Source: Parietichytrium sp. I65-24A (taxonomy: Eukaryota > Sar > Bigyra > Thraustochytrida > Thraustochytriidae). From it: DNA of 64,000 nucleotides. A model generated the notes under the pieces. It was given only the letters and a program-made list of their open reading frames with translations. It searched no databases and was not told where the DNA came from. How positions within the stretch are numbered: position 1 is the stretch's first letter; each line of letters starts with the position of its first letter. The position numbers and the translations under genes are program-made. Positions 21,560-43,655 of this stretch are shown in pieces. The DNA lies in contig BLSF01000044.1 of assembly GCA_012862575.1 (NCBI GenBank), positions 1 to 64,000 on the forward strand, read 5' to 3'.

Positions 21560-22804
21560 CTAGTTGACGACTCCGGAGCTTGTAAATGCGGCAGAGGGAG
21601 CAGCGGTCGAGATGCCAATGTAGTACTCGTCTTCAGGCACAGTCGCGGAGCCCAGCTCATTCCCGTTGAGCAGAAAGGTGACGGTATTGGACTTGAGACG
21701 GATTGTCACCACATCGCCCTCAGCGGGGCGTTGGGTAGGAATCGCCCTCAAAGCTTCGGTTCCGAAGAGTCCTCCAGAGAGAGTGGCGTATAAGTAATCT
21801 TGTGGATACGTCGAATCTTGTGCAGTAGAAATGCCAATGATAGTTTGGTAATCTGTCATCATTTGATCCAAGGTGAAGCTCATTTCCACATCCGCGGAAC
21901 TATCAAATTTGATGCAGGTATACACAGGCCTGTATTTGACTGCATCAGCTTCCAAGAACCCGTCGCTTCCGTGTCCATTGTTCACGAGCCCCCACGCTTC
22001 ATCCGTGGACGCATCACACATTTCAAAGTCATTTGGTAGTGCCCCTCTACTCTCAAATCCAGCGGATTCCTGATAGAAGGACAACCCAAAATAGTAATCT
22101 TTTTCTTCCACATCAAAGGAGCCTATCTCCACTCCATTTAGTTTGAAGGTGACTACATTCGAGGCAAGTCGAATCGAAATAATATCCCCGTTATTGTGCT
22201 TCACGGGGTCAAAAGAAAGTTCTTTCTCACCTCCTTTGTAAAGGTAGCCTTGTCCTGCTTCGTAAAAGTAGTGGTTCGGGTAAGCAGGGAAGGTCCTCCC
22301 GGAAATACCAAGGATGCAGATACTGCTGCGGTCATCTAGCACAAAAGTCATCTCTACGTCGCCAGTGCTGCTATACTTCTTGCACGTATATGTAGACTTG
22401 TATCGCAGCTCATCAGTCGATATACCTTTGCTCCCCTGGTCCGTGCCCGTCAAGTTCCAGAATCCATTGCGATCGCAAAACTCGAACCCGTTCGTCGGCG
22501 AAGGCGTCGGGCTCGCTGTCGGCTCGGGCGTTGGGGAAACTGTCGGGCTCGCTGTCGGCTCAGGCGTTGGGGAAACTGTCGGGCTCGCTGTCGGCTCGGG
22601 CGTTGGGGAACCGGTTGGCCCATTCGTAAAGCTGCTGATTACTTTTTTGATTTGTTTCTTCCAGCCGGAAGCGCGCAAGTTATCAGTGGCCCTGCTTTGA
22701 GCCGCCAACAGTGCACGGTTCTCGACGCTTGTTTCCAGTTGCACTCCAGCGCACGCATTTACGAGCACCAGCAGCGCCAGTGCCGCAACTATGGCATTTC
22801 GCAT
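21560..22804 (-). CDS. Tandem copy 2: secreted protein with Pro/Thr linker and two SPRY/lectin-like domains
   Basis: 414 residues from ATG 22802-22804; the frame continues upstream without an ATG. Residues 1-20 are a signal peptide (MRNAIVAALALLVLVNACAG), ~20-65 a charged helical region, ~66-115 a SPTPEPTASPTV repeat linker, then two related ~130-residue domains (TDQGSKG... and SDGFLEAD...). Each has the order Y-x-CxKxxSSxxVEMxFxLD, GxIsT, YxyxxxxGxLyxG, GDxxxIRLxSNxVTFxLNGxExGs and YYxGxS. The core GD-x-(I/V)-x-IRL-x-SN-x-VTF-x-LNG matches the SPRY/concanavalin-like signature (a solvent-exposed ligand-binding sandwich). Extracellular or cell-wall binding is an inference. It is flanked by the frameshifted copy 1 downstream and copy 3 upstream, all in the same orientation. 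Confidence 0.8.
   Translation of the reverse strand: MRNAIVAALALLVLVNACAGVQLETSVENRALLAAQSRATDNLRASGWKKQIKKVISSFTNGPTGSPTPEPTASPTVSPTPEPTASPTVSPTPEPTASPTPSPTNGFEFCDRNGFWNLTGTDQGSKGISTDELRYKSTYTCKKYSSTGDVEMTFVLDDRSSICILGISGRTFPAYPNHYFYEAGQGYLYKGGEKELSFDPVKHNNGDIISIRLASNVVTFKLNGVEIGSFDVEEKDYYFGLSFYQESAGFESRGALPNDFEMCDASTDEAWGLVNNGHGSDGFLEADAVKYRPVYTCIKFDSSADVEMSFTLDQMMTDYQTIIGISTAQDSTYPQDYLYATLSGGLFGTEALRAIPTQRPAEGDVVTIRLKSNTVTFLLNGNELGSATVPEDEYYIGISTAAPSAAFTSSGVVN
22495..22615. repeat. 36-bp coding minisatellite (Pro/Thr linker), copy 2
   Basis: Three units whose minus-strand translation is a 12-residue S-P-T-P-E-P-T-A-S-P-T-V motif. Copy 3 has more units and copy 1 nearly none. Confidence 0.85.
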
Positions 22805-24412
22805 CGTTGCAAATGTACCCTCGTGCCGATTGGCCGCGTGGTTCACAGATTGCCCTTGCGAGAGTTCGCTGCCTTTGGATCGAATGGGGTCTATTCTTGA
22901 ACAGAAAGCTCAACCGTGTCGGTGAGGATATGCAATGCGATCACTTTCTGCTCCTCAGGGGCTCTTCTCCTTTTCATTCCGGTTTTACCCATTCGTGTAG
23001 TGCACCAGACATGCTGGAGCGTGCTGGTTCACAATACGGCTTCATTGTGCTTTACTAGGCAATTCGTACGTACACAGAGACAGAGGTGTGGTTCACAGAA
23101 GGCGCTGCCCATAGATTTCAACGGTCAATACTTGAGCAGCGCCAAAACTTGATCGGTTTCTCTGGGTACTGGTAATACGCAATTGCTTCAAGTGGAGCCA
23201 CGAGGTCACGAGTGCAGCGCAAACAAACCCTATGGAAGGTAGGGTGACTTGTCCCCAACTTCCAAATTGCAGCAAGCCAGGCAAGTTAGCTCTCACAACT
23301 GAGCATTCCAACGAGCGTCGTGAATCGCATCTTTTGCATGGACAAGAACCAAGGAGGCGGGGGTTTATGTTTCCAGATCCCGAAGGGGGAATCAAAACGA
23401 AACGCTCACCCTCAACTCCGTTGGCTGCAGAATCTTAGAGATTGCCGCAATGAACGAAACGAGGTGAAAAATGACGGAGGGGTAGGAAGAGGTGCACAAA
23501 GTGCTGAGAGTTCACAAGAGAGTCTCGTCAACTGTTTATTTCCCGTTCCACGAGTTCGTCGTCATTCTGAGTATGCGGCAAGATACCCAAAACTTGAAGA
23601 CTTGAAATCTTGGGAGAGACGCTCATGCGGAATTGTCAATTTCGCAGGCGTCCGTTCAGTTGTAACGGTTGATCTCACAGACCAGGAAAAAAGTGCATTC
23701 ATTTCGAGAAGAATGTCCAAGTCTGTCCAGAAAAGCAGATCTGCGACGACTACATCGTACAGTGTTCATGATGAGAACACCACAATATTCAACCAGGCGA
23801 GAAGGCCAAGTGCAATTTGCAGGTTTCACAGGAAGTCGTTTAACGGCAAGGAGACTCCGGGAATCTCAAGGCCTCTTAAGCGATGCGCTAATTCAATACT
23901 ACGCTGAGGTTACGTACTCCCACTTGCAGTTCAACATTTTCTTATTCTTTGTCACGTGTTCTTTGTTAATTTTTTAAAATTATACAAGCCAAAGTGCGCC
24001 CGCCTTCGGCGGTCTTCTTCGTACTTGGGAGTTGCGCATGCCTCCGGCAGGCTTACTCGTTGCGTTTGCAGATGTTTGCAGCTCATCTTTGCGAGTTGCG
24101 CCTGCTACAGTCAGGCTTACTCGGTACATAGGCTCTTGAGTAGTGCGATGCTCAATCGCCTAACTGGTGGATCGGAAAGAACTACTTTACGGCAGCTCTA
24201 CTCCGCTCCGTAGAGGTAAGATAACAAATTGGAACCCATGTTGCAGTGACCTGTGTGTGTGTGTGGATCCGGCAAGTAGAGAACCGACTCGGACGTCTTG
24301 TTTCAGCAGACTTTGATGAAAGAAAAGCTTCGGTTTTATTTGTTCTTCGTTGACTGTGGAATTACATTTGGAAGCGCAGAAGCCGATGATTATTCTCTGA
24401 ATCTCTCTAGAA
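22805..24412. other. Spacer of array unit 2, ending in a GC-palindrome element
   Basis: Conserved with the flank of unit 3 (for example GGTTTATGTTTCCAGATCCC, then AACGCTCACCCTCAACTCCG) and partly with unit 1. A plus-strand frame at 23320-23907 is open for 195 codons but the equivalent region of unit 3 stops early and unit 1 does not keep it, so I do not call a gene. The GC-palindrome element lies at 23985-24195, between units 2 and 3. Confidence 0.5.
23985..24195. repeat. GC-palindrome modular element, copy 2
   Basis: Same order of modules as 11665-11880 (CCGCCTTCGGCGG, CCTCCGGCAGG, GCTTACTCGGTACATAGGCT) with substitutions and a small deletion. It is followed by a CTCTACTCCG/CTCCGTAGAG hairpin to ~24214 and preceded by an AT-rich stretch (TTTTTTAAAATTATA). 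Confidence 0.75.
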
Positions 24413-25720
24413 CTAGTTGACGACTCCGGAGCTTGTAAATGCGGCAGAGGTAGAAGCGGTCGAGATGCCAATGTAGTACTCGTCTTCAGGCACAGTGTCG
24501 GAGCCCAGCTCATTCCCGTTGAGCAGAAAGGTGACGGTATTGGACTTGAGCCGGATTGTCACCACATCGCCCTCAGAGGGGCGTTGGGTAGAGAACGCCC
24601 TCAAAGCATCAGTTCCATAGAGTCCTCCAGAAATGGAGGCGTAAAAGTAATCTCGTGCATACGTCGAATGTTGTGCAGTAGAAATGCCAATGATGGTTTG
24701 GTATTGTCCCGAGTATTCATCCAAGGTGAAGCTCATTTCCACATCCGCGGTACTACTAAATTTGATGCAGGTATACGCAGGCCTGTATTTGACTGCATCA
24801 GCTTCAAGGAACCCGTCGCTTCCGTAACCATTGTTCACAAGCCCCCACGCCTCATCCGTGGACGCATCACACATTTCAAAGTCATTTGGTAGTGCTCCTC
24901 TACTCTCAAATCCAGCGGATTTCTCATAGAAGGACAGCCCAAAATAGTATTCTTTTTCTTCCACATCAATGGAGCCTATCTCCACTCCATTTATTTTGAA
25001 GGTGACTACGTTCGAAGCAAGTCGAATCGAAATAATATCCCCAGTATTGTAGACCACGGGGTCGAAGGAATTTTGTTTCGCACCTCCTTTGTAAAGGTAG
25101 CCTTGTCCTGCTTCGTAAAAGTAGTCGTTCGGGTAAGCACTGTAGATTTTCGAGGCAATGCCAAACATGCATGTCCAATCGACGCGGTTATCTAGCACAT
25201 AAGTCATCTCTACGTCGCCAGTGCTGCTATACGTTTTGCACGTATATGTAGACTTGTATCGCAGATCATCAGTCGATGTACCTTTGCTCCCCTGGTCCGT
25301 GTCCGTCAAGCTCCAGAATCCATTGCGATCGCAAAACTCAAACCCGTTCGTCGGGGAAGCCGTCGGGCTTGCTGTTGGCTCAGGCGTTGGGGAAACTGTC
25401 GGCTCAGGCGTTGGGGAAGCCGTCGGGCTCGCTGTCGGCTCAGACGTTGGGGAAACTGTCGGGCTCGCTGTCGGCTCGGGCGTTGGGGAACGAGTGGGTC
25501 CCAACGTCGGGTACGGCGTAGGCGAACCGGTTGGCCCATTCGTAAAGCTGCTGATTACTTTTTTGATTTGTTTCTTCCAGCCGGAAGCGCGCAAGTTGTC
25601 AGCGGCCCTGCTTTGAGCCGCCAACAGTGCACGGTTCTCGACGCTTGTTTCCAGTTGCACTCCAGCGCACGCATTTACGAGCACCAGCAGCGCCAGGGAC
25701 GCAACTATGGCATTTCGCAT
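24413..25720 (-). CDS. Tandem copy 3: secreted protein with long Pro/Thr linker and two SPRY/lectin-like domains
   Basis: 435 residues from ATG 25718-25720. Same architecture as copy 2: signal peptide 1-20, helical segment, a longer Pro/Thr-rich linker (~66-130, units of SPTPEPTASPT with variants such as SPTSEPT), then the two related domains ending TSSGVVN. The first domain begins after FEFCDRNGFW and the second after FEMCDASTDEAWG; these Cys pairs may form disulfides. Divergence from copy 2 is concentrated in the loops of domain 1 and in linker length, which suggests the exposed face and the stalk length vary. The family is not recognised beyond the SPRY-like core. Confidence 0.8.
   Translation of the reverse strand: MRNAIVASLALLVLVNACAGVQLETSVENRALLAAQSRAADNLRASGWKKQIKKVISSFTNGPTGSPTPYPTLGPTRSPTPEPTASPTVSPTSEPTASPTASPTPEPTVSPTPEPTASPTASPTNGFEFCDRNGFWSLTDTDQGSKGTSTDDLRYKSTYTCKTYSSTGDVEMTYVLDNRVDWTCMFGIASKIYSAYPNDYFYEAGQGYLYKGGAKQNSFDPVVYNTGDIISIRLASNVVTFKINGVEIGSIDVEEKEYYFGLSFYEKSAGFESRGALPNDFEMCDASTDEAWGLVNNGYGSDGFLEADAVKYRPAYTCIKFSSTADVEMSFTLDEYSGQYQTIIGISTAQHSTYARDYFYASISGGLYGTDALRAFSTQRPSEGDVVTIRLKSNTVTFLLNGNELGSDTVPEDEYYIGISTASTSAAFTSSGVVN
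25345..25520. repeat. 36-bp coding minisatellite (Pro/Thr linker), copy 3
   Basis: Four to five partly shuffled units of the same 12-residue linker repeat as in copy 2. Confidence 0.85.
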
Positions 25721-29010: not shown

Positions 29011-32000
29011 TCATTCTAGCGGATGGTCTCTGAACTTGGGCTCAGGATGATGCGCTGGCCGCGGCGGTGCTGGAGGAGGCGGAGGTCGAGAGGACGATGA
29101 TGCTCGTCGATGCAGCTTAGCGGCGCCTTCTGCGCTACCTTCCGTCGCCCCACCAGACTTGGGTGACAATGATGGCGGCTTCGCGGGAATTGGAGGAATG
29201 GAAGGTCTGCTTGAGTCGACTGTTCGATTCACACTCGAGCTTGGAACTGGCGGAGCTCGATGTTTCGGCGGCGTGGTTGGTTCTGGTGCGCGTGCAAATG
29301 TCTGCTGCGGCACAGGGCGACTTGCTGTCTGTGGCTGACTTGGGGGCGGTGGAGGCGGGGTCTGGATGACAGGCTGAACCGGGGGAGGGGGTGGGACGCT
29401 TGCATTGTGGGAGATCGTTTGCGCCGGGATCGTACCGGTGCTTCGCGATACGCTGCCAGCTGATGACATTCTCGCGGCCCCAGAGCCAGGTAAATGACTG
29501 GAGGGCTGGGTTCCGGACAATTTGCGAGCTTGGAGATGTTGCTCCTTCGTAGCCGCTATCGTCTCCACGTCCTGATTTGAGACACTGATGACTGACTTGT
29601 TCAAGTCCCAAATCTCAAGGTCCGTTGGAGGGTCGTGACCTTCTTTGGCAAAGAGCGTCCGCAGGCTGTTTACTACCCAAATACTTCCTGGTCTTCCACC
29701 TGAGGCGCCAGCATCCTGCCACATCTTTGTAGGTTCGACCCTGGATGCTGTGCACCAATGCTTTGGAACGCACCGAATCGCGGTTGTCGGGGGAGGATCG
29801 TCCGTGGTGGTGGCAAGCATACCCAGAGCAACAAAAGCTGGATTGGGTGGAATTGGCTTCCACGCGTAGAAAGGCGCTCCGTGCTGTTGGGACCACACCT
29901 GGTTGAAACGCACTGGGTGCGGCAATAGCTTGTTAAGCACCGGTATCATGTACTCGCCCTGCCCACTCACTCCCCAACGATCCATGTCACGGACCTCCAG
30001 CGTGTACTTGGTGGCTGTCCTCTTCTCGTCTGATTTTGAGGATGAAAAGAAGTTGATCTTGTGCCCTGGCTTGTCGAAACCACTGTGAACAAGATGACCA
30101 AGACACACCTTTAGGCGATTCTGCTTGAACAGATTCGAGTCTAGCTCGGGAGCCCAAACGCTCACATTCATTTTGGTCATCGATCCGCGGCTCGTCCAGA
30201 CCTTTTCGAAACCGTGAATTTCCTTCACCTTGAAGCGATACCTCGACACGACATTTGGATTAAGCGCCTGCTGCTCAATAGTCTCCTTGCGAGCGTCTTT
30301 CGGGGCCTCGTACAGTTCTTGCATTGGCTTGGGCTCGATGACAATGTCATTAAAGTCTTCATGACTCGCGATGAGCCCACGCTCTGACATCGAAGCCTCC
30401 AATCTCTTGTCATAGAATGCGGTTCGAAACTCGTCCAATGACAGAGTTCCATCGCGATTGTGATCCAGATTGCGCATGATGCCGTGGATCTGTTGAGGGG
30501 TGATTTGTAGGCCGAGCCAATCCAGCGCACCGTACAACTCCGAGCAAGAGATCTGTCCGTTGCGGTCAGAATCAAATGCGCGGAACGCGTCAAGAATGAA
30601 CATCCCCTTTTGGTAAATCAGGCCGCGCACACGGCTGATCGTTGCACGCTCTTCCAGTAGACTATACTCGTGCTCCACGGTAAATAAACGCTGAAGGCTC
30701 GTCTCACGAACGGGTCGCTGATTTCTTCTGCGGCACTCCCTGACCTCTTCAAACCACCTTTGGCGCGCTTGCGGAGGATTTACTTGCAAAGCACGCAACA
30801 GCATATTTATTGGCCTGTCACGAAAGTACACCTCACTATCCACGAATCGGAGACACTCGTAGCTCGTTGTGAGTTGATACTCACTTCCACCCCGAAAGCC
30901 CTCCGTGCTTTCCATCATTGACTTGGTAAAGAGTGAGTGGAGAGCAACCGACGCTGTGCCGCCGTCTACGAGCTCCTTCCCTTGTCTTTGACGAAGATGC
31001 ATAAGGCCCCGCAGGGACTCCGCTTCATAAAGCGACAGGGCAACAAAAAAGCGGTTCTCTTCAAGATGGTAAAACGTTCCCTTCTCCACCAACGACTTGA
31101 AGGCATTTACGTCAATTCCGCTGATGGAAGCTGGGTCGATCTCTCGCTGGTACAATTTGCTCAGCGCCGCTCGAAGCTCCTTGTCTAGCACCTTTTCAAG
31201 CTTGGCCCGTCGCTTTCGGAATACGCTCTCTGAAGTCCCAACGAGCATGTCGTCCTCACCAGATACGTCGTCAGTATCTTTTGACTCCTCCATATCAGAT
31301 GGAATCACCTCTTCGCTGTCAGAGTCGTTGTCAATCTCCTCGATCGTGATGTCTTCAAAGTCCGAAGAGGCCTTAATGACACTAGCGCTCAGCGCTTCAG
31401 GAACCACATCCAGCGCAAGCATCGCTTCGAAAAGTTCTGCTCGATTCAAAAGCTTATCTCCGTCAATGTCAAACATTTTAAAAGCTTGCGCCAAATGGCT
31501 CCAGGCCGTTTCGTCCATGTGAGACTTGAGACCTAAAACTCCAGCACTTTCGCGCAGCTCCGCACGATTCGGTATCCACTCCATCACCATAATAACATTT
31601 TTGATTCGACGATGCGTCTGTAAACTCCAAGACGGATCATAATGATTTTTACTGATCAGTAGCGACTTGGGGAACGTGATCGGTACAGGCGACTCCGTCA
31701 GCTTGCGATGCATAGCAAACTCGGAGCATGGGAAAAAGCTCAAAGGAGTCGGATTTGGCGCACACAGTGCACTCACCGGCCAAGGTTTAGGTTCTTCGTC
31801 TTTGCGGCTGTACTTCTTCTTAACAAAATCCTCGTCCTCCTTCTGCTCAATCTTCTCTTCCTCTTTCTCTTGTTCCTGCTCTTGCTCCTGTTCCTGCTCT
31901 TGCTCTTGCTCCTGCACCTGCTCCGCATTGAACACTTGCTCTTTCGCAACCTCGTCTTGATTTCCAACGCCTTCCACTCCGGCAAGTGTGGGCACCAGCG

Positions 32001-35000
32001 CCCCTCTCCGCGACGCATCCTTCGCCCTGCTCTCCGACTCGCTAACAAGATTTTGTATACGGTTTGCCACCTGCTGATCTTCATCGGATGCTAAGAGCCG
32101 CTGATGGCTCTTCACCAGGTTTCCAATCTTCTCTACAAACGGCTCCACCCTGGGGACGGTCGTTTCCACAGAGTAATCCACACGCTCGCGGAAGGCATCG
32201 ACACAAAATTCCAAAAATTGCGTCTCTGCAGCTTCACTCTTTTCTCCAACGCGGGACTGGTTTCGCAAAACGAATTGGTGAGCTCGCTTGCGATACACGT
32301 TTCTCACAGACTGCTCGCAAAGCAAATTAAACTGAATCTTCTCGGAGCGCATGGAATTGATCACCAACCACTTTGTGATATCTTCCAATAGGCGCTTCAC
32401 TGGCTCCCCTTGAATGACGTGATCCTCCGCTTTGGAGACCATCTGCGCTAGATGGCTTGGGTGCAAAACTTGACCCTCGCCTGCCGCGACCTGCAATTTG
32501 ATGAGCATCTCCACCTCAGGAATCACAAACACCTCAATAGTTTGCCCAACGCCGATACCCCGCATTCGAAACGCCCCTTGCGCGTAATCTCGAAAGGTCA
32601 TGTCTTTTCCCAACGTCACGACCGCCTTTGCACTGATCGCCTGCTTGATATCCATTCCTGTAGTATGCACTTGATCATAGAAGGAGAATCTCCGGGCAGG
32701 ATCTAGTCCTGATCGATCCAGAGGCATCACCCTTCCGCTCCGAGTCAGCACCATCTTGCGGTCCTGAGAGTCCAAAAACACCACGCCTTCAAGCTCTTCG
32801 GAGAGTCCGTTATTCAAAAGAAAGGCGGACACCTCATAGTTGGACATCCCAGTGACAAGCGCTCCGGTGTCAATGAGAGCGTGATACGGGGGCCTTGCTT
32901 GCGCGATCATTTTCAAAAGGTTCTCCACTGTCCATCCAGACTCCACGGTGCGGACGGAGGTGACTTCCGGGTTCGTGAGATGATACAACATCTTCCCGTC
33001 TGACCCTTTCTCGTAATGGCATTTTCCGAGCTCCACCGGCAGCAAGTCCGAGGGGGTCCCACTGAATCCTATCCTTCTTGCAAACATGATTTGCCCACCA
33101 AGCTCCTGCCCACAGGCCGAAATTTTCAAGCCGTGATGCTGCAGTGTCTCCGGAAAGATGAATTTGTCCAAGTAGTACATGATAGCGTGCGGCGAGAAAC
33201 GCAAAAGACGATACAGCGTGCCAATCTGGTACGGATCCTGCAGGTCAATGAGTTGAAGTGGCCACAGATCATCGTATTCCCCACTCATTGCACTCAAGAT
33301 ACCCTCCGTGTAGACCTCAGCCCCAGCTGGATCCGCAGAGGTGCTCTCCGAGCGGGTCATTTTAAACCGCTTTCGATGTGACTCCACCTTGGTCCCGCGC
33401 ACGCGACCACCTGCAAGGGCAACCCAGCGGATGTAGATACGGCTCGCCTCGCGCTTGATATATGGGCCGACGTCTTCCTCTAAGCGCTCACGGAGGTGCC
33501 GCAAAAGCCACATAAAGTCGCTCAACCTCAGGCCCTCGTATCTGTACGCCAAAATCGCGAGCCCTACGACGACATCCGGATGCGAAAATTCCGACGCTCG
33601 GCTTGGACAGTCCTTACCTACGAACGGTACCGCTAGCAGCTTGCGATTCTTTGGCATTTTTGGATCCAAGGCGAGGAACTTTGCCAAGTCAGTCTCATTC
33701 AGCAGGCCATATTTGACGCGATTGATCTTCGCAAGGACGAATGGCGTGAACGTCGAAATCCACTCTCGCGCCAGATTGATCATCTTCGTGTTCTCGTCAG
33801 TGAGCTCTGTGTTGACGATTTGAGCGCTCTCCGGAGCATGCTTTGGTCCCTTCACCATGTAGTCAATGGCGTGCTCGTCGGAGATTCCCCGAAGTCCTTT
33901 CGATGACAGGAACAACAGCATCCACTTTGCCAGCAAGGGTTTCAAACGAGCCGAATAGAAGGACCTCGACAAAAGCACCAGGTGAGGGGTTTGCTGCATC
34001 AACCTGAGCTCAAGCCCGCTCTTGATGACCTCATCTATGCTCTTCAGAATACTCTGCGCTGTTCTCGACGAAGTGAAATCCAAGGTCGTCTCCTTCGATG
34101 TGTGAAAGAAGAAGGCGTCCAGCAGATGAAATGGGATCATCCAGCGCATGCCGTCGTTCCCTTGGACATGGCTGCGGGTGAAATCCAGCGGAACCTTCTT
34201 TCCAATCGGCCAGTTCAGCTCGGACCGAAGCGGATGCAAAATGAGATCAACCTCATCTAGCAGTAATACGCCTTCTCTGAACAAATCGAGTATTTTTGTG
34301 GACAGCTGCATTTGTAGTCTGAGCGCGTCCTTGTCAATGTACTCCTGCTCCTCTGCAGCCCCTCCCCCAAGACGGAAGATGGCTTCCTTGAAGAATGACT
34401 TGATGCTACTCGGCGCATTCTCAATATCGTAATCGCTTCGGTATTTGGCAGCATCCAAAATGTGGGCCGCTTCGAGCGATTTCAGGAAAAAGCTCTTCAG
34501 TGCCGTTGGGGTCGTGCACACCACAGCCCGTGACTTGCGGGCAATGAGCAGCTTGCGGAATAAACTTCTGGAAACAGAGGAAAAGCGGTCAAACACGAAC
34601 GTGTACACCGGCTTTTGAATAATTGCAGAAAACTTGTCTCGCATCACCGCCCTTGAGAACTCCAAAAGAGCGTGCGGAACTACTTGCACCACCAACGACT
34701 TGCCGTCACCTAGCAAAAGTGCAAGCAGAGGTCCAACCACGGTCGTTTTCCCGGCGCCCATAATCATCTGATGGCATCGGGACTCTCCTCTGCTCAGGGA
34801 GCCCATAAAATCACCCACTAAACGAACCTGCGACTCTCTCAACAAAATACTGTACGTAAATTCAAACACCAAGAATCTCGGGTCCAGAACGAATTTGTCG
34901 CCCTCGACTTGGACGTAATGTCGCTTTGCAGTAAGCTCGCTAACGAGGGCGCTTGATTTCAGGCTCACAGCTTGCTCAGGCGCCTTCGATCGGAGGCTCT

Positions 35001-38000
35001 GCAGCACTTCGTGAGCGCAGGCAATGCAACGCAGTGTCTGTGCCATCCGATTTACTCGAAGAGCCACCCCGATGGACAGCTCAAACACCTCCGCCAGCGT
35101 TTCCTTGCTGAGGAAAGGATTCAATTGGGTCAAATGATAGTCCCCTAGAGTAGACATCATGTTTCCAAGCAACAGCTCGAACCAAATCGTGGTTTCAGAG
35201 CCACTGTATTGACTCAACAGAAAGCCGAGGCGCTTTCGCATCCCAGTCTCGCCATACGCCTGCTTGGACCCGATATCTACCCAGTTTGCGAGATCTACAA
35301 TACAGGTGATCGCAGAGGCAACGACTTTAGAATCACGCTCAAAGAGCTGCTCGAGCTTCAGAATCAGCTGATCCACTTGGTCTCGGTTTCGGAGACGCCC
35401 GATGGACGCGCCGTTTGTGAGATCCTCGAATGCCCGCGCGTCGCTTCGTAGCCGTTCCAGCATTTCTACCGCAATGTGCGACCGTGCTGCGGCATGCTGA
35501 TCCACATTCAGCAGTACCCCATCCTTGGAGTCCCCGAGTGCTACATTTGGCAAGCCCAAGCTAGATCGAGAGGACTCCGACACCCACGAGTCCAGGCTCA
35601 CGGTACTCATTGGAGCAGAAGTGAATGCTCTTATTTCGGACGCGTCCACCCCGACGTTCACTCCGTCCGCGCCAGTTGCCTCCAGTGCGCCAAACGATCT
35701 GCTCGATAATCCAAGGTCGAGCACGCGAGGCGCGAGCCATGCGCGATCCCGAAGCGGATTTGGCGAGATTGGCAAGGAGACGTGTGTACCTGGCCGCCAC
35801 GGCGGAAACTGAATTGAAGTGGAGGGCCACTTAATTAAGGTAGACTTGGAGCGCAATGTGCTATTGCATTTTTCCAAGAGCCGCTGAATTACGTTCTGGC
35901 CTTTGAAGATAAGAGTCATCTTGTTTTTTCGGTCGTCTTCGTACTTTGGCATCTCTTTGACAAGCTCCGGATTGTTCGCTAGAATACGCAGGACGGAGGT
36001 CATAGTCTGCGTCTTTTGGAATTTCTTTGGGGTCATAAGATGCAGCAACGCGCAGCCCCAGTTATAGCAATTGTCGTCCTCAAGAATTCGAACAAACATT
36101 GTGCCAGTCATGAGCTCGTACAAAAATGGAAATCCCTTTCGCGACCGTCCTCCGCGCACCGAGACACCGCCGTTGACGATATCCTGAAAGAAATAAACTG
36201 CCGGTGTACCTGTGACGTTGCCCTCTGGCCGTTCATAACGCATCGGCTTCAGCGAAGAGAAGGCGCGAAGCGTCTTTCGCCATGAAGAGGCATTCTTTCT
36301 ATCTTCCAGCGCTGTGTCATCGCGCACCTGGCAAAACACGATTCCTGGCTGCGGTCGCTCGGGGTGGAGAACTGCAACCTGGTCGGACTGCGGCTTGGAT
36401 GTTTGCCCCAGCGCCGTGAGCTGCATGGCGTTTAGCAACGCACAGCGATTAAATAGCAGCATGCCGTTTGTGCGCTTTGACGCACGCAATAGACTGCGTC
36501 CCGGAGCACGCATAGCAATTTCATCCAACAGCGTAAGCTCGTCTGTCATGGATAATCTACAGCTCGAAGATATCTTTCGATGTTTGATGGCGTACATCGA
36601 CATCTCTTGGACAATGTCCCACGGTACGCTCATTATGTCTTGGCACCCCAGCGTCGCCAGACTCAGCTTCAGACGGCAAGCGTGAGCATCAGGGTGCATG
36701 TCCGAGTTGAGCGTTCCCATAACATCAACAATCTGCTCTTCCTCCGGGCTGAGCTTTGTGTCACTTACGCACGAGTCTGCAACTCGGAAGGCCAAGTCGT
36801 ACTGACGCGACATCAACCTCATCAGAAACATGTACAGAGAAGAGCTGAGCGTAGGCGTGAAGAGGAACGACCGAGAAAGATGAACTGGGTACAGGTAGTG
36901 CCGCACGTCTCCGAGATTGGCGTTCCACGCTGAGTTCGTGCGGTCCATCAATATTTCGGTGGAGAGGATGGACTTTGGACGAACGGGCCGCATGGGCACC
37001 GCGCTTGCCGACATCAAGATGAACAGCTCTCCTCTCCAATTCTCTAGTAGTACGCCGTGAGGCAGTCCTTGCAGCAATTTCGCGACCATCGGGTCACGGT
37101 TTGAAGATAAATAGAGCCCCGTATGCTCCTGACAAAATAGTTTGAGCTGAATTCCAGCTTGGCTGGGCTCCTTCTGAAGACGAAACGACAAGCGCACTCT
37201 TGGCAGCTCCACAAGATCAATTGAGGTAACGTCATCAATCTTTGTCACTTTGGAGAAGGTCCAAACTAGCACATGACTCAGATTCTCCAGTCTGAGCAAA
37301 ATCGATGTCAGCTGCTTCAACGGGCTCTTGTTTGGTGCATGCAAGCAGTTCAATAGCGTGTGGCGCTCTTCAGTGCCAGCCAGCGGCCCGGATTCGATGG
37401 AGACGTAGCGGTGCACGATTGCAAATGCCGAGGAATTTCCATAGCCAGAAGTGTCGTCAGCTCCATCTGGCACGATCTCAATGTGCAGCCTTGAACGCGG
37501 TTTAATGACCTTTGCGCTCTCTTCCATGCCGGCTTGCCCACCAAAACTGGCGGACGTGTCACCTCCACTCTCGTGTTCCAGAGCATCGCCTCGGATACTT
37601 CTTTTCTCAAAGCCCGAGATCGACTTGTCCTCCACATTTTGCCAAAAGTCGTACTCTTCAAGAAGTGCTTCTGGAAGCAGCCCCTTCAGGAATCGTGGCG
37701 GAATAAACTCTTGTAGTCCAAGATTTGTCGACAGATTCCGAGTAATGATCAAAGTAGGAGAAGGCTTTAATGGTTTTTTGGGAACGTCGCCCACCGACAG
37801 CATAAAGCCAGATGACTTCCACACGAGGTCGGGCTGCGTCCCAAAGTCTCCGTAGCAGAAACTCACATCTGAGCTGAAGACCAGAGACCGATAGAAGCGT
37901 CGACCGTGCTCCTCCACTTGGTAAACATGGACGGCTGGAGGCACTTGAAATACAACCACCTCCAGCAGTGTGTCCGGGTCGAATCGGCTCGAGTCTGGCA

Positions 38001-41000
38001 GTGGCGCGCCGTCCACTTGCTGCACCGCTGCCCCTTTTATAACCCCGGTCAGTGTCGCAAAACTCTGCTTACCACAAGAGACCTGAGGCAGAAACAACTC
38101 CACGTGCTGTAGCTTTGCTCGATGCACGGGCCCAAGGACTTTCTCTATCCAGCCCTCAGTCGCGTCCAGCCCGCCTGGATAGAGCCGTCTGTTTGGGTTT
38201 GGACGATCTCGGCGAAAGTCCGGCGTCCAAAGCATCACGTCGTGGCGGAGCCCTATCAGACGTTTCCAAGAGCGGAACTGGGTGTCTTTCACCTCCGCGC
38301 ACTGGTATCCCTTGCCGGCGGCAAGGTCAGCTTCGCCAAACACTTGCTTGAAATCATCCATCGTGACGAAACGGTCTTCCAATAGCTTCATTGGATGCTT
38401 TTTCAGCGTAAACTCCCCAAGCTGAATGTTGATTTCGGTATCTACACTCTGCGTTGTGACAACACGCATCCACTCCTCAAAGTCCTTGACATCATTCGCG
38501 CTGTCCAGGCATCGCGCAAGGCTCTTGATTTCCGTGTCAGGCATGAATCTTCCCGTGCAACCAGGGATGTCAGGAAATCTCCACTGTCGCGCCTTTTGCT
38601 CGAGCTCTCCATGGCCGTTGTTCTTCCTCTTGTTTCCAGCTGTGAGGCTAATCACCGCCACGATGGATTCCATCGTATCGTCGCCGTCAGCAGAGTTTGC
38701 GACGAGCCAGTCAAGAATTTTCCGGCGCTGCTTTTCGTACAAGGAAAAGAAGTCCGTTGGCGAGATTCCAAGAAAATGAGATTCCTCTTGGCCTCTGCTT
38801 GAAGACTTTGCCTTGGCACCGACAGGGTCGTCCACTTCTACACTGAACCGAAAATTAACCGACACGAATATATAACTAGTAAGTATCGCAGATACGCTGC
38901 GCTTGTTCAGTTCGTCCGAGCCCGCGCCAAGAAAGAGGTACGCCATGTGGGCGTGAAATATACATGCCAGGTGCGACTCGCGATTCTTCATTGCCACTTC
39001 ACACCACTGGTTCAGCATCGGATACACAGATCCTTCGAGCTTTGCTGTCAACTTGCGTTTCATGGCTCGAAGATACGGAATACTCTGCGAAGTGCCATGT
39101 TGAAAGAGACCACGCACCATAGACTTTGCGCCACTCCAAGACACCACTTCGTCTCGAACCTGTCCCCCGGCAGCGACAGCCTCTTCCACGGTGTAACGAT
39201 CTATGAGGAAAGTCATGTATTGTATCACGCGCACGACCAAGCGCGTAACGTACAAAATAACTTGAGATGAGCTCGGCGAATACCTCCCAACATCAAGCTC
39301 AATCGCATAAAACAGGAGATTCTCGATTGCGTCCAGTACAAGATTCGGGGAATGTTGGAGCTCGTTGAACAAGAGGCCGACCGGAGTGGAGAGGTGCCGC
39401 CGAGTTGCCGCCGGAACAGTGGTCGGTTCGTCGAAATTGCCACTACGAAGCCAAGTACCTGGCTCAAATAGGCAAGCATCGACAATGCCTTGAAGTTGAG
39501 GTTCCGTGAGTGCAGATACTCGCATTTGGTCTGCAAAGAATTGCAAAATCAATGGAATCCGCAAATACGGGGCGGTGAGGTATTGAAGCAACAGCTCGCA
39601 GTCTCGCGCACTAATTCGGCCTCCAAAGTCTGGCAATTTCTTGACATGGAGAACATCGTCTTCGGTGCGGATCTCAGTTCCGACAAAATTGGATGGGTTC
39701 GCCCCTGACGGAGGGGCGCGGGGCTGATTCGTCCCTCCAAGTCCGATGAAATCTAGAAACGATTCGATGGCAGATTTCTGGTTTTGTGAATCGAAAGAGA
39801 AAGTGCGCACATAAGCTGCGCACTCCAACTTCCTCCTCCCAAAGCCTGCGACGTTAAGAGTCACACCAGCACGTGCAACATTGTCCTGTTGATTGGCGTC
39901 TCCAGCACTGTCAGGGCTCGCGCGTTTCCCAAGGCTCCAATACAGTCTGGCATCTGTTGCTTTCCACTGCTTGAGTTCAGGAAGCGAAGATGCTGTTGGT
40001 GAGAGCAGCGCTTTGAATAAGAAAATTGTATCCCGAAAGAGAGCCAATTCTGGATAGTGGTCTACAATCCCGGGATCCTCTCCAGTGAGATACTTCGCCA
40101 TGCCTTCGATGCCTTCGTTGCGCGCGAATCCCATTTGAACGCAGAGCTGATTGATAAGTCGGTTCTCCGCTGTCCCAAACGCCATCGAGTGCTCAAACCT
40201 GAAGAGCAAATGGTCACTACGAACCAAATCTTGTAACGCTGTAAAGTAATCCAAAATTTGCGTTCGCGCAGTAGCTAGATACGGATCGTTAAAGCACAAA
40301 AAGCCACTTTCTTCCACAAAATATCCAATCTCAAAGGCATACGGATGGACTGGTCCCGCTGCCTGTCCATCGTAGTGCAAGGAGAATTGAGAAGGGAGAT
40401 CGCAAGCGCATACGCGCACTACCGCATCTGCAATGGTTGCCAAGCACCCCATCGTGATAATTCGTGCAGCATCAAAAGACCTGCTGTTGCTGATGGAGAG
40501 CGACGAACTCATAAAGTGCCTTCCGATCAGCTCCAAAAGACGAAGAATGTCCGCTTGAGTCTCATACCGCATCGGTCTCGAAAACCAGAAACAATGATCG
40601 GCTCTTCTCTCATGGTTACGTGGAAGGGGGAGCGGGAGTATCTGCGTAAAGAGATGTTGGATCAGCGCCACCCGGATGCAATATGTGTTTTTAATCATAT
40701 CGCGTTGGTTGTCGAGCAGTGTGCAGACATTGACGCAGTGGCGCAATGCCGTAGTAACATCGTTGAAGTCTGATATCTTTCGGTCAACTTCCGTCAGCAC
40801 AATGGGTCGGAGGATGGGCGGGACAGTGCTTTCCCCAGCGAGGTAGTCCACGTTGCAGTCGCGTCGAAACGCTCCAAACATTGGAATGCAAGATCCAAAT
40901 TTGACAGTCCCCCCGTTGTTCAAGTTAAGCTCCGGCGGGAGCCGAAGCTCAACTAGCGGTTTTTGGAGCTCTATCACGCGTGAATCTATCTCATTGATCA

Positions 41001-42819
41001 AGTTCGCTATCTCTTGCAGGTGATCTGACGTGGTTGGGGAACTCTGCTCCTCCAGACTTCGCTTTGCGGCATTGTCCGCAAGTTGCTTGCACGAGAGCCG
41101 TATCAAGAGTGCCTCACTCTCCATGATTCCCTCTGTCTGGAGAATGTCCTGTCGCACCATCTCGCATACCTCCTGACGAATTAGCAGGGAGACATGTTTG
41201 GCCTGAAAGTGGTTCAAACCAAGGTTTAGCAACGTGCAGCGAAAACTGGCTTTCAAAAGGTGGAAGAACGAGCCGTCACTGACATCCCTCTGAGTGCGCA
41301 TGTCCATTGTGGCCAAGTCAAATGAGTTGCGATTTGCGTAGAGGGGTTTGGTGTTGAGATACGAAAACAGTGTTTCATACAGCATTTCCGCGGAGTTTTT
41401 GGAGTGCGACCAAATCTTGAGTCGGAATAACAAGAACCAAAACGACGAATCTGTCAGTCGCCAGCTTGGAATGTCTTCGATCGAGAGGCAGAGATTTCGC
41501 TTCATCTTTCCGGTTTCCTCATCGAGTCGGGCATTGTGATAATCGAAACCGTCCCAACGAGCTTTTTTAGCCCGGTTCTCATTAGCGTCCAACTGCTGCT
41601 CTTGCTCTGCCCGTGGGTGACCAACGTTGCACACCGTTAGAGAAAACGTGTTGGCTTGCCTTGTGAGCACAAACATGACCAAGTGGGACTCCACGCTGGA
41701 CGATCGGTTGGGTACTGCCGCGCTGGGGCTGCGAGGCTTTGCGTTCTGACGAGTAGTGTCGGCAGCGCCGGCGTCGGACGCTTTCCGTTTACCGTTTCCT
41801 TCTGCTTCGTCCTCGGAAGAGTCCGAGGAGTCTTCCGCAGGTTCGTCCCCATGAGCAGGTTGCGCAGTCCAACCTCCAGGAAAACAAATCACTTCCCCTT
41901 CGCGCATCCCACGGATTCGTTGCACGAATCCATGCAGAAACCCTTGAAACATGGCAGCACTATCCTGAGCATTAACGGGAAGGTTGCCCGTGACCCAGCT
42001 CGCCACAGAGAAAGCAGCTTTGGCGGCGCGAAGACCCCACTTGTCCCCTAATTTTTTAACCAAACGATCCATTGCTACACTGAAGAACTCCAGGGACATA
42101 CCCAAGGAGCCAAACTCTTCCACGGGGCCGCTTGGCCATGTCCCGCTAATGTATCTATCTGCGCACATACCGTAGTATCCCGGATGCGTCCACACAGGTG
42201 CTTTGTCGAACACGAATTTAGGCGGACCATTTCGAGCCTTTGTGGAAGGCGCTGTGACTGATTTGTGGCTGGGCGCATCCTGGGTTGTGTAAGTCACCGA
42301 AGGTATCGGCGTGGCAGTGGCTTGTATAGAGGTCGTTGCTGCATTCGAAGGCGTAGCGGTTTGCACAGGAGGGGTGCTACTACTTGTATTGGGTATGACC
42401 TTGGTATAATTTTTCGGGAAGATTCCCGTTTTGCCGCGAATCATGCCTGACCACCACTCTGGGTCCGGGGATTGGGTCACCTGCAGGATGTCACCTTTGA
42501 AAACTTGCAGCTCATCGACAGCATTCGGGCTGAAGTCCCAAAGCACTTTGACTGTCAACTTCGAGTCACCCAGGTTGGACGTATCTGTACCCTCTTGACC
42601 GGCGGACGGCGCTGGCGAGCTGGCAGCAACAGCGGCAACTGCTTGGATAACCTCCACGTAATCTCTGGGGAACAGTCCGGAACCAGACCCATCTTCTTTC
42701 TGCCCTGCCCACCAGCCTGAGAGATCATTCGAGTCAGTGACCTCCACAACATCACCTTTGCGGAGACTCAGTTCGTCGCTCTGCTGTGCATCAAAGTTGT
42801 ACAGCGCCCGGGCTCGCAT
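29011..42819 (-). CDS. Giant SH3-SH3-DUF3638/DUF3645 helicase-like-EF-hand-Vps62-like protein
   Basis: One uninterrupted exon of 4602 residues from ATG 42817-42819. Two SH3 domains lie at ~1-58 (ARALYNFDAQQSDELS) and ~88-142 (KVLWDFSPNAVDEL). The N-terminal third is typical of DUF3638 proteins (GEVICFPGGW, SSFWFLLFRLKIW). The core has all parts of an SF2/SecA-like ATPase: Walker A GAGKTT (2688-2693), VQVVPHALLEFSR, CTTPTALKSF, Walker B DEVD (2855-2858), FSGTP (3252-3256) and YAQGAFRMRG (from 3412), corresponding to DUF3638 plus DUF3645. Then come an (EQ)n tract (~3635-3655), three EF-hand loops (near 3783, 4086 and 4119; DIDGDKLLNRAE, DSDRNGQISCSE, DHNRDGTLSLDE), a Vps62/DUF946-like domain (~4280-4400, FYAWKPIPPNPAFVALG) and a Pro-rich SH3-ligand-like tail (~4460-4602). 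DUF3638 proteins have no settled function. A calcium-regulated ATPase scaffold at membranes is an inference. Confidence 0.93.
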   Translation of the reverse strand: MRARALYNFDAQQSDELSLRKGDVVEVTDSNDLSGWWAGQKEDGSGSGLFPRDYVEVIQAVAAVAASSPAPSAGQEGTDTSNLGDSKLTVKVLWDFSPNAVDELQVFKGDILQVTQSPDPEWWSGMIRGKTGIFPKNYTKVIPNTSSSTPPVQTATPSNAATTSIQATATPIPSVTYTTQDAPSHKSVTAPSTKARNGPPKFVFDKAPVWTHPGYYGMCADRYISGTWPSGPVEEFGSLGMSLEFFSVAMDRLVKKLGDKWGLRAAKAAFSVASWVTGNLPVNAQDSAAMFQGFLHGFVQRIRGMREGEVICFPGGWTAQPAHGDEPAEDSSDSSEDEAEGNGKRKASDAGAADTTRQNAKPRSPSAAVPNRSSSVESHLVMFVLTRQANTFSLTVCNVGHPRAEQEQQLDANENRAKKARWDGFDYHNARLDEETGKMKRNLCLSIEDIPSWRLTDSSFWFLLFRLKIWSHSKNSAEMLYETLFSYLNTKPLYANRNSFDLATMDMRTQRDVSDGSFFHLLKASFRCTLLNLGLNHFQAKHVSLLIRQEVCEMVRQDILQTEGIMESEALLIRLSCKQLADNAAKRSLEEQSSPTTSDHLQEIANLINEIDSRVIELQKPLVELRLPPELNLNNGGTVKFGSCIPMFGAFRRDCNVDYLAGESTVPPILRPIVLTEVDRKISDFNDVTTALRHCVNVCTLLDNQRDMIKNTYCIRVALIQHLFTQILPLPLPRNHERRADHCFWFSRPMRYETQADILRLLELIGRHFMSSSLSISNSRSFDAARIITMGCLATIADAVVRVCACDLPSQFSLHYDGQAAGPVHPYAFEIGYFVEESGFLCFNDPYLATARTQILDYFTALQDLVRSDHLLFRFEHSMAFGTAENRLINQLCVQMGFARNEGIEGMAKYLTGEDPGIVDHYPELALFRDTIFLFKALLSPTASSLPELKQWKATDARLYWSLGKRASPDSAGDANQQDNVARAGVTLNVAGFGRRKLECAAYVRTFSFDSQNQKSAIESFLDFIGLGGTNQPRAPPSGANPSNFVGTEIRTEDDVLHVKKLPDFGGRISARDCELLLQYLTAPYLRIPLILQFFADQMRVSALTEPQLQGIVDACLFEPGTWLRSGNFDEPTTVPAATRRHLSTPVGLLFNELQHSPNLVLDAIENLLFYAIELDVGRYSPSSSQVILYVTRLVVRVIQYMTFLIDRYTVEEAVAAGGQVRDEVVSWSGAKSMVRGLFQHGTSQSIPYLRAMKRKLTAKLEGSVYPMLNQWCEVAMKNRESHLACIFHAHMAYLFLGAGSDELNKRSVSAILTSYIFVSVNFRFSVEVDDPVGAKAKSSSRGQEESHFLGISPTDFFSLYEKQRRKILDWLVANSADGDDTMESIVAVISLTAGNKRKNNGHGELEQKARQWRFPDIPGCTGRFMPDTEIKSLARCLDSANDVKDFEEWMRVVTTQSVDTEINIQLGEFTLKKHPMKLLEDRFVTMDDFKQVFGEADLAAGKGYQCAEVKDTQFRSWKRLIGLRHDVMLWTPDFRRDRPNPNRRLYPGGLDATEGWIEKVLGPVHRAKLQHVELFLPQVSCGKQSFATLTGVIKGAAVQQVDGAPLPDSSRFDPDTLLEVVVFQVPPAVHVYQVEEHGRRFYRSLVFSSDVSFCYGDFGTQPDLVWKSSGFMLSVGDVPKKPLKPSPTLIITRNLSTNLGLQEFIPPRFLKGLLPEALLEEYDFWQNVEDKSISGFEKRSIRGDALEHESGGDTSASFGGQAGMEESAKVIKPRSRLHIEIVPDGADDTSGYGNSSAFAIVHRYVSIESGPLAGTEERHTLLNCLHAPNKSPLKQLTSILLRLENLSHVLVWTFSKVTKIDDVTSIDLVELPRVRLSFRLQKEPSQAGIQLKLFCQEHTGLYLSSNRDPMVAKLLQGLPHGVLLENWRGELFILMSASAVPMRPVRPKSILSTEILMDRTNSAWNANLGDVRHYLYPVHLSRSFLFTPTLSSSLYMFLMRLMSRQYDLAFRVADSCVSDTKLSPEEEQIVDVMGTLNSDMHPDAHACRLKLSLATLGCQDIMSVPWDIVQEMSMYAIKHRKISSSCRLSMTDELTLLDEIAMRAPGRSLLRASKRTNGMLLFNRCALLNAMQLTALGQTSKPQSDQVAVLHPERPQPGIVFCQVRDDTALEDRKNASSWRKTLRAFSSLKPMRYERPEGNVTGTPAVYFFQDIVNGGVSVRGGRSRKGFPFLYELMTGTMFVRILEDDNCYNWGCALLHLMTPKKFQKTQTMTSVLRILANNPELVKEMPKYEDDRKNKMTLIFKGQNVIQRLLEKCNSTLRSKSTLIKWPSTSIQFPPWRPGTHVSLPISPNPLRDRAWLAPRVLDLGLSSRSFGALEATGADGVNVGVDASEIRAFTSAPMSTVSLDSWVSESSRSSLGLPNVALGDSKDGVLLNVDQHAAARSHIAVEMLERLRSDARAFEDLTNGASIGRLRNRDQVDQLILKLEQLFERDSKVVASAITCIVDLANWVDIGSKQAYGETGMRKRLGFLLSQYSGSETTIWFELLLGNMMSTLGDYHLTQLNPFLSKETLAEVFELSIGVALRVNRMAQTLRCIACAHEVLQSLRSKAPEQAVSLKSSALVSELTAKRHYVQVEGDKFVLDPRFLVFEFTYSILLRESQVRLVGDFMGSLSRGESRCHQMIMGAGKTTVVGPLLALLLGDGKSLVVQVVPHALLEFSRAVMRDKFSAIIQKPVYTFVFDRFSSVSRSLFRKLLIARKSRAVVCTTPTALKSFFLKSLEAAHILDAAKYRSDYDIENAPSSIKSFFKEAIFRLGGGAAEEQEYIDKDALRLQMQLSTKILDLFREGVLLLDEVDLILHPLRSELNWPIGKKVPLDFTRSHVQGNDGMRWMIPFHLLDAFFFHTSKETTLDFTSSRTAQSILKSIDEVIKSGLELRLMQQTPHLVLLSRSFYSARLKPLLAKWMLLFLSSKGLRGISDEHAIDYMVKGPKHAPESAQIVNTELTDENTKMINLAREWISTFTPFVLAKINRVKYGLLNETDLAKFLALDPKMPKNRKLLAVPFVGKDCPSRASEFSHPDVVVGLAILAYRYEGLRLSDFMWLLRHLRERLEEDVGPYIKREASRIYIRWVALAGGRVRGTKVESHRKRFKMTRSESTSADPAGAEVYTEGILSAMSGEYDDLWPLQLIDLQDPYQIGTLYRLLRFSPHAIMYYLDKFIFPETLQHHGLKISACGQELGGQIMFARRIGFSGTPSDLLPVELGKCHYEKGSDGKMLYHLTNPEVTSVRTVESGWTVENLLKMIAQARPPYHALIDTGALVTGMSNYEVSAFLLNNGLSEELEGVVFLDSQDRKMVLTRSGRVMPLDRSGLDPARRFSFYDQVHTTGMDIKQAISAKAVVTLGKDMTFRDYAQGAFRMRGIGVGQTIEVFVIPEVEMLIKLQVAAGEGQVLHPSHLAQMVSKAEDHVIQGEPVKRLLEDITKWLVINSMRSEKIQFNLLCEQSVRNVYRKRAHQFVLRNQSRVGEKSEAAETQFLEFCVDAFRERVDYSVETTVPRVEPFVEKIGNLVKSHQRLLASDEDQQVANRIQNLVSESESRAKDASRRGALVPTLAGVEGVGNQDEVAKEQVFNAEQVQEQEQEQEQEQEQEQEKEEEKIEQKEDEDFVKKKYSRKDEEPKPWPVSALCAPNPTPLSFFPCSEFAMHRKLTESPVPITFPKSLLISKNHYDPSWSLQTHRRIKNVIMVMEWIPNRAELRESAGVLGLKSHMDETAWSHLAQAFKMFDIDGDKLLNRAELFEAMLALDVVPEALSASVIKASSDFEDITIEEIDNDSDSEEVIPSDMEESKDTDDVSGEDDMLVGTSESVFRKRRAKLEKVLDKELRAALSKLYQREIDPASISGIDVNAFKSLVEKGTFYHLEENRFFVALSLYEAESLRGLMHLRQRQGKELVDGGTASVALHSLFTKSMMESTEGFRGGSEYQLTTSYECLRFVDSEVYFRDRPINMLLRALQVNPPQARQRWFEEVRECRRRNQRPVRETSLQRLFTVEHEYSLLEERATISRVRGLIYQKGMFILDAFRAFDSDRNGQISCSELYGALDWLGLQITPQQIHGIMRNLDHNRDGTLSLDEFRTAFYDKRLEASMSERGLIASHEDFNDIVIEPKPMQELYEAPKDARKETIEQQALNPNVVSRYRFKVKEIHGFEKVWTSRGSMTKMNVSVWAPELDSNLFKQNRLKVCLGHLVHSGFDKPGHKINFFSSSKSDEKRTATKYTLEVRDMDRWGVSGQGEYMIPVLNKLLPHPVRFNQVWSQQHGAPFYAWKPIPPNPAFVALGMLATTTDDPPPTTAIRCVPKHWCTASRVEPTKMWQDAGASGGRPGSIWVVNSLRTLFAKEGHDPPTDLEIWDLNKSVISVSNQDVETIAATKEQHLQARKLSGTQPSSHLPGSGAARMSSAGSVSRSTGTIPAQTISHNASVPPPPPVQPVIQTPPPPPPSQPQTASRPVPQQTFARAPEPTTPPKHRAPPVPSSSVNRTVDSSRPSIPPIPAKPPSLSPKSGGATEGSAEGAAKLHRRASSSSRPPPPPAPPRPAHHPEPKFRDHPLE
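31862..31925. repeat. Hexanucleotide repeat coding for (Glu-Gln)n in the giant protein
   Basis: CTCTTG/CTCCTG-type units on the plus strand, read as alternating Gln-Glu on the minus strand, in frame inside the giant gene just before its EF-hand region. Confidence 0.85.
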
Positions 42820-43501: not shown

Positions 43502-43655
43502 TCATGAAACCATGAAACCATGAAACCATGACACCATGAAACCATGAAACCATGAAACAATGAAACAATGAAACAATGAAACCATGAAACCATGAAATCA
43601 TGAAACCATGAAACCATGAAACCATGAAACAATGAAACCATGAAACCATGAAACA
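43502..43655. repeat. 9-bp minisatellite (CCATGAAAC)n, copy 1
   Basis: About 17 units with variants CAATGAAAC and TCATGAAAC. The homologous array at 45530-45690 has a different variant order. Confidence 0.95.

Follow-up and report, generated by a model that had tools for sequence, protein, structure and literature searches.

What does a thraustochytrid make from an open reading frame (ORF) of 4602 codons, and what would the helicase-like centre of the product do? This question is raised by the gene of protein P0001, which lies on the minus strand of the DNA analysed here: 64,000 nucleotides of Parietichytrium sp. I65-24A (assembly GCA_012862575.1, contig BLSF01000044.1, positions 1 to 64,000), referred to as the window. 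Taking the evidence as a whole, P0001 is a DUF3638/DUF3645 giant, probably with a SecA-like superfamily 2 (SF2) ATPase at its centre. In an earlier note on this DNA a SecA/helicase-like core had been proposed within an unusual series of domains.

Conserved motifs of the central motor

To gain insight into the family relations of the protein we scanned P0001 against Pfam at E ≤ 1, which returned 11 families. DUF3638 (PF12340) reached 71.8 bits (cut-off 31) and DUF3645 (PF12359) 52.9 bits (cut-off 25), such that P0001 belongs to the family. The motor was then compared in an alignment of 51 cores. Among the 40 cores fetched later, L165 (362 amino acids) had been dropped beforehand, and L025, whose match spreads over three frames, was excluded from sets A2 and A3. 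The central features, all on the minus strand, are:

29011..42819, minus: whole ORF of P0001, 4602 amino acids (translation)
32440..34884, minus: SecA-like SF2 motor, residues 2646-3460 (Pfam, alignment, predicted fold)
34741..34770, minus: motif I / Walker A, QMIMGAGKTT, residues 2684-2693 (51-core alignment)
34246..34257, minus: motif II, DEVD, residues 2855-2858 (51-core alignment)
33085..34212, minus: insert between motifs II and III, residues ~2870-3245 (motif spacing; fold search)
33559..33651, minus: DUF3645 within the insert, residues 3057-3087 (Pfam)
33052..33069, minus: motif III, GFSGTP, residues 3251-3256 (51-core alignment)
32647..32667, minus: motif V, HTTGMDI, residues 3385-3391 (51-core alignment)
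32557..32580, minus: motif VI, QGAFRMRG, residues 3414-3421 (51-core alignment)

Motifs I, II, III, V and VI, as found in SF2 helicases, are conserved in this alignment. G2690 and K2691 of Walker A, D2855 and E2856 of motif II, T3255 of motif III and D3317 occur in all 51 cores, and D2858 in 46 of them. In motif V, G3388 is kept in 48 and D3390 in 45 of the 51 cores. Motif VI has a letter in 50 rows; all of them keep R3418 and R3420, and 49 keep Q3414. The positions that the earlier note had given for GAGKTT (2688), DEVD (2855), FSGTP (3252) and YAQGAFRMRG (3412) are all exact. In its conserved residues the motor matches a functional SF2 ATPase.

As an alternative, P0001 could act mainly as a giant scaffold whose SH3, EF-hand and Vps62-like parts bring a complex together, with the motor just changing shape upon ATP binding. 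The more than 2000 body residues outside any named domain and the protein-binding ends would suit such a role. A scaffold that does not hydrolyse ATP would however have no need of the motif II Glu and both motif VI Arg, which are kept in every lettered row, and we regard this role as unlikely. From conservation and modelled fold, P0001 is most probably an active SecA-like ATPase.

Likeness of the motor to SecA

SecA is the protein-export motor of bacteria and plastids. It carries a polypeptide clamp inserted between motifs II and III and a scaffold after its second lobe. We predicted structures with AlphaFold for the P0001 motor and for a chlamydial relative and compared them with known structures using Foldseek and VIA, considering the best 50 rows of each search. 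The P0001 model was weak (predicted template modelling score, pTM, 0.43). SecA nevertheless came first among the rows listed, with 316 residues aligned at a root-mean-square deviation (rmsd) of 5.7. For the chlamydial relative (pTM 0.68) SecA was again first among the rows listed: 561-564 residues aligned with SecA in SecY complexes at an rmsd of 5.0-5.1, compared to at most 357 residues for any other structure listed. By the predicted fold, two RecA-like lobes surround the motor motifs.

The distance between motifs II and III provides a second comparison. In the DUF3638 family it is 279-422 residues with a median of 311 (33 of 51 rows readable by pattern), and in SecA 162-290 (21 of 25 rows with the stricter pattern; 21 of 23 otherwise). 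Control families, taken from six genomes, had medians of 27 for SNF2 (8 of 9 rows read), 31 for DEAD-box (8 of 8), 35 for PriA (3 of 6), 34 for RecQ (1 of 2), 25 for Mfd/RecG (7 of 7, with one value of ~151) and 54 for UvrB (6 of 6, with values up to 176). By its spacing the family has a large domain inserted between motifs II and III, as SecA does; a clamp-like fold of this domain is putative.

Several results weigh against a SecA-like motor. In profile-profile comparison by HHalign the 51-row profile scored 80.8 % with DEAD-box, 36 % with PriA, 26 % with RecQ, 15 % each with SNF2 and UvrB and 13 % with SecA, and for three smaller query sets PriA was top each time and SecA never. SecA Pfam models (PF07517 and relatives) were absent from P0001 at E ≤ 1 and from nine cores at E ≤ 0.5. 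Sequence profiles point just to SF2. Furthermore, XPD and DinG carry a large insert at the same place as SecA. A search of PDB sequences with the core profile was uninformative, with a single match at E 0.56. Kinship with SecA provable from sequence was a candidate that we dropped, since HHalign against the control families favoured DEAD-box and PriA. With SecA sequence models unmatched and an HHalign value of 13 %, we call the DUF3638 motor SecA-like and do not class it as SecA. The claim rests on the predicted structure and the insert position, not on sequence. The SecA/SF2-like core proposed in the earlier note agrees with the structure predictions and the fold search, while profile-profile comparison gave SecA no preference.

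The same data bear on the possibility of an SF2 nucleic-acid translocase or helicase, whose lobes would travel on RNA or DNA and whose insert would be a grip like the Arch of XPD/DinG or a RIG-I-type insert. Besides the profile ranking of DEAD-box, PriA and others above SecA, weak ResIII matches in 8 of 9 cores (E ≤ 0.5; best 7.5e-5) and a contact of the DUF3638 profile with Mfd at 15.9 bits, below the cut-off, speak for it. XPD and DinG share the SF2 lobes, and RIG-I, MDA5, DinG, XPD and SNF2 entries are among the fold-search rows listed. In these rows, however, Foldseek and VIA place SecA above all of them for either model, and for the chlamydial relative its alignments are longer (up to 564 residues vs at most 357). 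Between its motifs I and II, XPD has an iron-sulphur cluster bound by four cysteines. No conserved set of this kind was found in the P0001 family: between these motifs no alignment column has at least 15 Cys of 51, and the one core column that does is located in the insert. The partner modules seen are, moreover, protein-binding or ubiquitin-linked. We consider a nucleic-acid motor rather unlikely.

SecA/SecA2 is the best structural match of the two models, and P0001 shares with it the large insert and motifs of the DEVDxIL, GxTGT and GTDI type. P0001 differs in the missing SecA Pfam match, the weak profile comparison, an about five times greater length and the SH3 and EF-hand modules, and it is not known to have a SecY partner.

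Integrity of the gene and its paralogues

The coordinates 29011..42819 and the 4602 unbroken residues given in the earlier note, which left the strand unstated, are correct. The frame starts at its first in-frame ATG at 42819 and ends with the last base of its stop codon at 29011, without internal stop or N. The open frame upstream ends by 42879 and contains a TTG. The guanine-cytosine (GC) content at codon position 2 is below that at positions 1 and 3 in 15 of 16 windows of 300 codons; only the final window, which is short and Pro-rich, departs from this. An 8-bp tandem repeat, CATGAAAC, is present in 19 copies at 43503-43654, some 700 bases upstream of the ATG. A scan for sigma-70-type promoters upstream of P0001 has little meaning for a eukaryotic host.

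We searched the host assembly (42.5 Mb, 172 contigs) with the PF12340 profile and obtained five places including P0001. The other four frames are C43 (3977 amino acids), C136 (5166), C50b (8209) and C50a (2359). In C50a (G000:C50:57351-67416; L010, L011) homology runs on across a break into a second frame of 976 amino acids; the break may be a pseudogene, an intron or a sequencing error. By Pfam, C43 carries UBA, a pair of EF-hands and zinc fingers of the RanBP type, C136 has EF-hands and a Vps62-like tail, and in C50a nothing but DUF3638 and DUF3645 exceeds the cut-off. C50b (G000:C50:192761-217390; L013-L016), a single frame, contains ubiquitin-like, WWE, thioredoxin, DUF3638, DUF3645, EF-hand and Laminin_G_3 domains. 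EF-hands are thus present in three of the four.

Blastp matches of P0001 were colinear with C43 (residues 374-4135), C50b (424-4131) and C136 (202-4398). Because of this colinearity, residues ~370-4135 of P0001, EF-hands included, form one family architecture as far as alignment tells. The SH3 pair (residues 1-150) and the tail after ~4400 were seen in P0001 alone among the five host copies, and no SH3 match was found in the scanned pieces of the four paralogues. In a quick core tree P0001 and C136 are sisters (Shimodaira-Hasegawa-like approximate likelihood ratio test, SH-aLRT, 99).

These alignments also address whether the frame arose by chance or through an assembly that fused separate genes. 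Its exceptional length and the fact that it is known from genomic DNA alone could raise this suspicion. In a simple base-frequency model with its own base composition, however, 4602 open codons have a chance probability of ~10^-90, the frame has no N, and the stretch that directly follows the two SH3 domains aligns with the N-terminus of C136. The remaining four DUF3638 places align over long stretches of P0001, three of them as single frames, which argues for one protein, as the earlier note had held. A chance or chimeric frame was rejected on these grounds and is extremely improbable.

Domains outside the motor

The features outside the motor are the following:

42652..42810, minus: SH3 domain 1, residues 4-56 (Pfam SH3_1 4-51, SH3_9 5-56; phmmer PDB 1uti_A, residues 3-56, 2.6e-8)
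42400..42558, minus: SH3 domain 2, residues 88-140 (second Pfam SH3 stretch; phmmer PDB GRB2, residues 88-144, 1.5e-14)
41869..42216, minus: N-terminal family segment common to paralogue C136, residues 202-317 (blastp 30.6 % identity, 9e-11)
35140..41706, minus: family body N-terminal to the motor, residues 372-2560, without Pfam match (colinear with paralogues)
36640..37305, minus: body part common to chlamydial proteins, residues 1839-2060 (four-paralogue hidden Markov model, HMM, vs eight bacterial frames)
31840..31911, minus: Gln/Glu-rich tract, residues 3637-3660 (repeat DNA 31851-31924)
31435..31470, minus: EF-hand loop 1, residues 3784-3795 (pattern and Pfam EF-hand_1)
30538..30573, minus: EF-hand loop 2, residues 4083-4094 (pattern and Pfam)
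30430..30465, minus: EF-hand loop 3, residues 4119-4130 (pattern and Pfam)
29716..30012, minus: Vps62-like segment, residues 4270-4368 (20.7 bits, cut-off 22.1; C136 tail 28.7)
29014..29529, minus: Pro-rich tail, residues 4431-4602, with three class II SH3-ligand-like motifs (pattern)

SH3_1 matched in two stretches with 86.3 bits (cut-off 22.9), and EF-hand_7 with 60.4 bits (cut-off 30). EF-hand_1 matched in three stretches, and canonical 12-residue EF loops were found by pattern at 3784, 4083 and 4119, such that both domain types belong to P0001. A phmmer search against PDB sequences hit only the SH3 and EF-hand parts among the best 60 of 504 matches. In the Gln/Glu-rich tract nine E/Q columns (3637-3651) are invariant across four aligned paralogues.

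The Vps62 profile (PF06101) covers ~100 of its 541 positions in P0001 and remained below its cut-off there. Since the homologous tail of C136 passes the cut-off and aligns with that of P0001, the Vps62-like call appears right in kind from these profiles. The domain list and order of the earlier note hence stand for the two SH3 domains, DUF3638, DUF3645 and the three EF-hands, all of which exceed their thresholds in segment searches; for Vps62 the threshold is missed in P0001 itself. Its picture of a joining of disparate domains does not hold: the body from ~370 to 4135 is common to the paralogues, and the Vps62-like tail is common to C136. What is new in P0001, as read from the gene, is the SH3 pair and the Pro-rich tail on a known, unexplained family that it otherwise resembles in scores, giant size and motif set.

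For the Pro-rich tail it had been suggested that it could bind the SH3 domains of the same protein. The tail contains three PxxPx[RK] motifs vs 1.2 expected by shuffling (P = 0.10) and no class I SH3-ligand motif, and we abandoned the idea of a tail built for its own SH3 domains.

Relatives in bacteria and giant viruses

A scan of a bacterial and archaeal species collection yielded nine loci, five labelled Parachlamydiaceae or Chlamydiae, three Verrucomicrobia and one 'bacterium'. G002, which contains locus L023, is labelled Chlamydiae. Of 151 genomes from its phylum 77 matched at E ≤ 1e-3 and 62 exceeded the cut-off, with up to 13 DUF3638 places per genome, many in frames of ~2500-4700 amino acids. 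In the phylum of G003, a metagenome-assembled genome labelled Verrucomicrobia, 61 of 116 genomes matched, 47 above the cut-off. As this search returned largely the same genomes, G003 probably sits in the phylum of G002. DUF3638 places numbered 14 in G001 (a fragmented assembly), 13 in G057, 10 in G070 and 11 in G115; some of these places are in giant frames next to each other on the same contig, e.g. G070:C109 and G115:C22. Small chlamydial genomes also gave weak matches, with E between 3.8e-4 and 9.7e-4, which were not counted: L054, the one checked, has Mfd domains.

HMMs of the paralogues, searched against eight bacterial frames, some of them partial, matched the motor in all eight (E 7e-81 to 3e-32). 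Residues 1839-2060 were matched in three (L023 5.6e-16, L022 5.4e-10, L029 9e-7), and the N-terminus weakly (L023 1.4e-7). In contrast to P0001, neither EF-hand nor SH3 nor Vps62 was matched at E ≤ 0.1 in five bacterial proteins of 2263-3997 amino acids (one cut at its start). In the core tree the four eukaryotic rows group together on a long branch, from which we claim no direction of transfer.

Giant viruses have relatives as well. In a library of predicted viral structures nine matches were found at E ≤ 1.4e-12, with E down to 1e-28: four in Hokovirus and one each in Harvfovirus, Fadolivirus, Hyperionvirus, Yasminevirus and a 'Megaviridae environmental sample'. A pattern scan of viral contigs gave 47 candidates, none confirmed; the patterns were probably too narrow, since the fold library did hold giant-virus members.

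Of the nine viral matches five bear the name DUF3638, while two are called 'ubiquitinyl hydrolase 1'. The latter name and the ubiquitin-linked modules of the host paralogues would suit a deubiquitinating enzyme. The residues kept over the 51 members are, however, those of an ATPase, and no protease or deubiquitinase Pfam family was found in P0001 (E ≤ 1) or in pieces of the paralogues (E ≤ 0.1). We take the name to be an automatic transfer and find such an enzyme very unlikely.

Frames with SecA_DEAD matches were seen as well. In the phylum of G004 they have 4390-7197 amino acids and occur besides normal SecA (G156:C22, G164:C1, G155:C45, G157:C18, G166:C2); in G070 two such frames have 1705 and 1190 amino acids (L066, L067).

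In the literature passages located, no function was found for the DUF3638/DUF3645 family. A proteogenomics paper on Tetrahymena, which has DUF3638 genes, calls the mechanism of the domain undefined in the passage seen (PMC12615304), and the domain is listed in passages on microsporidia (PMC5423893), Aspergillus oryzae (PMC6237848) and Hypomyces (PMC6627653). SecA-like helicase-related domains stand beside ubiquitin-system domains in Amoebophilus effectors (PMC3482391), and giant actinobacterial toxins have SecA-like ATPase domains (PMC8195603), according to excerpts of these papers. The two are not among the full-text matches for DUF3638. Within the passages returned by the full-text search no statement that DUF3638 is SecA-like was found, and those on SecA-like proteins together with chlamydiae or giant proteins held nothing on the DUF3638 family.

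Other ORFs of the window

All further ORFs described here lie on the minus strand. Three related adjacent ORFs, two with Ser/Pro/Thr-rich linkers, occupy 19330-25720; in the ORF at 24413-25720 the PT repeat alone exceeds its Pfam cut-off. A WD40 protein (14719-17298; best 25 of 37 matches) has a C-terminal part that looks cold-shock-domain-like by eye. At 55417-56940, 12.6 kb from the P0001 gene, a UBA / thioredoxin-like / UBX protein is encoded, an order found in p97 adaptors. A tubulin with both tubulin domains, gamma-tubulin by eye, is found at 57853-59103. Beside it lies an ORF of 1043 amino acids (60087-63218) with many IQ-like motifs by eye and no Pfam match at 0.001.

A possible mechanism and its meaning

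The central motor would consist of two RecA-type lobes, the large insert at the place of the SecA clamp and a long helix that follows the second lobe, at the place of the SecA scaffold. ATP binding and hydrolysis would open and close the lobes and thereby move the inserted clamp along a substrate. The likeliest substrate would be an extended polypeptide, for two reasons: beyond the motor proper the predicted models match SecA best, and the host paralogues carry ubiquitin-linked modules (UBA, RanBP-type zinc finger, ubiquitin-like and WWE). We hold this assignment tentatively, with confidence a little short of even.

The SH3 pair may place or switch the motor via Pro-rich partners, and the EF-hands may switch it via calcium, a form of control for which the loops make a possible, still more tentative case. 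The Vps62-like tail may place the motor, perhaps at membranes. No strong transmembrane stretch was seen in P0001 (best 19-residue Kyte-Doolittle mean 1.8), and a membrane role appears doubtful.

In a broader and speculative picture, which we think improbable as it stands, the DUF3638 giants would form a second class of eukaryotic ATP-driven polypeptide-pulling machines, with a SecA fold instead of AAA+. Ubiquitin-linked, WWE, SH3 or calcium modules would direct these machines, chlamydial symbionts and giant viruses would have them as well, and P0001 would be the SH3- and calcium-wired version. If true, a SecA-like motor in eukaryotic proteins of 4000-8000 residues that also bear signalling and ubiquitin-linked modules would offer a testable mechanism for a family without known function, and a shared machine would tie a eukaryote to intracellular Chlamydiae and giant viruses.
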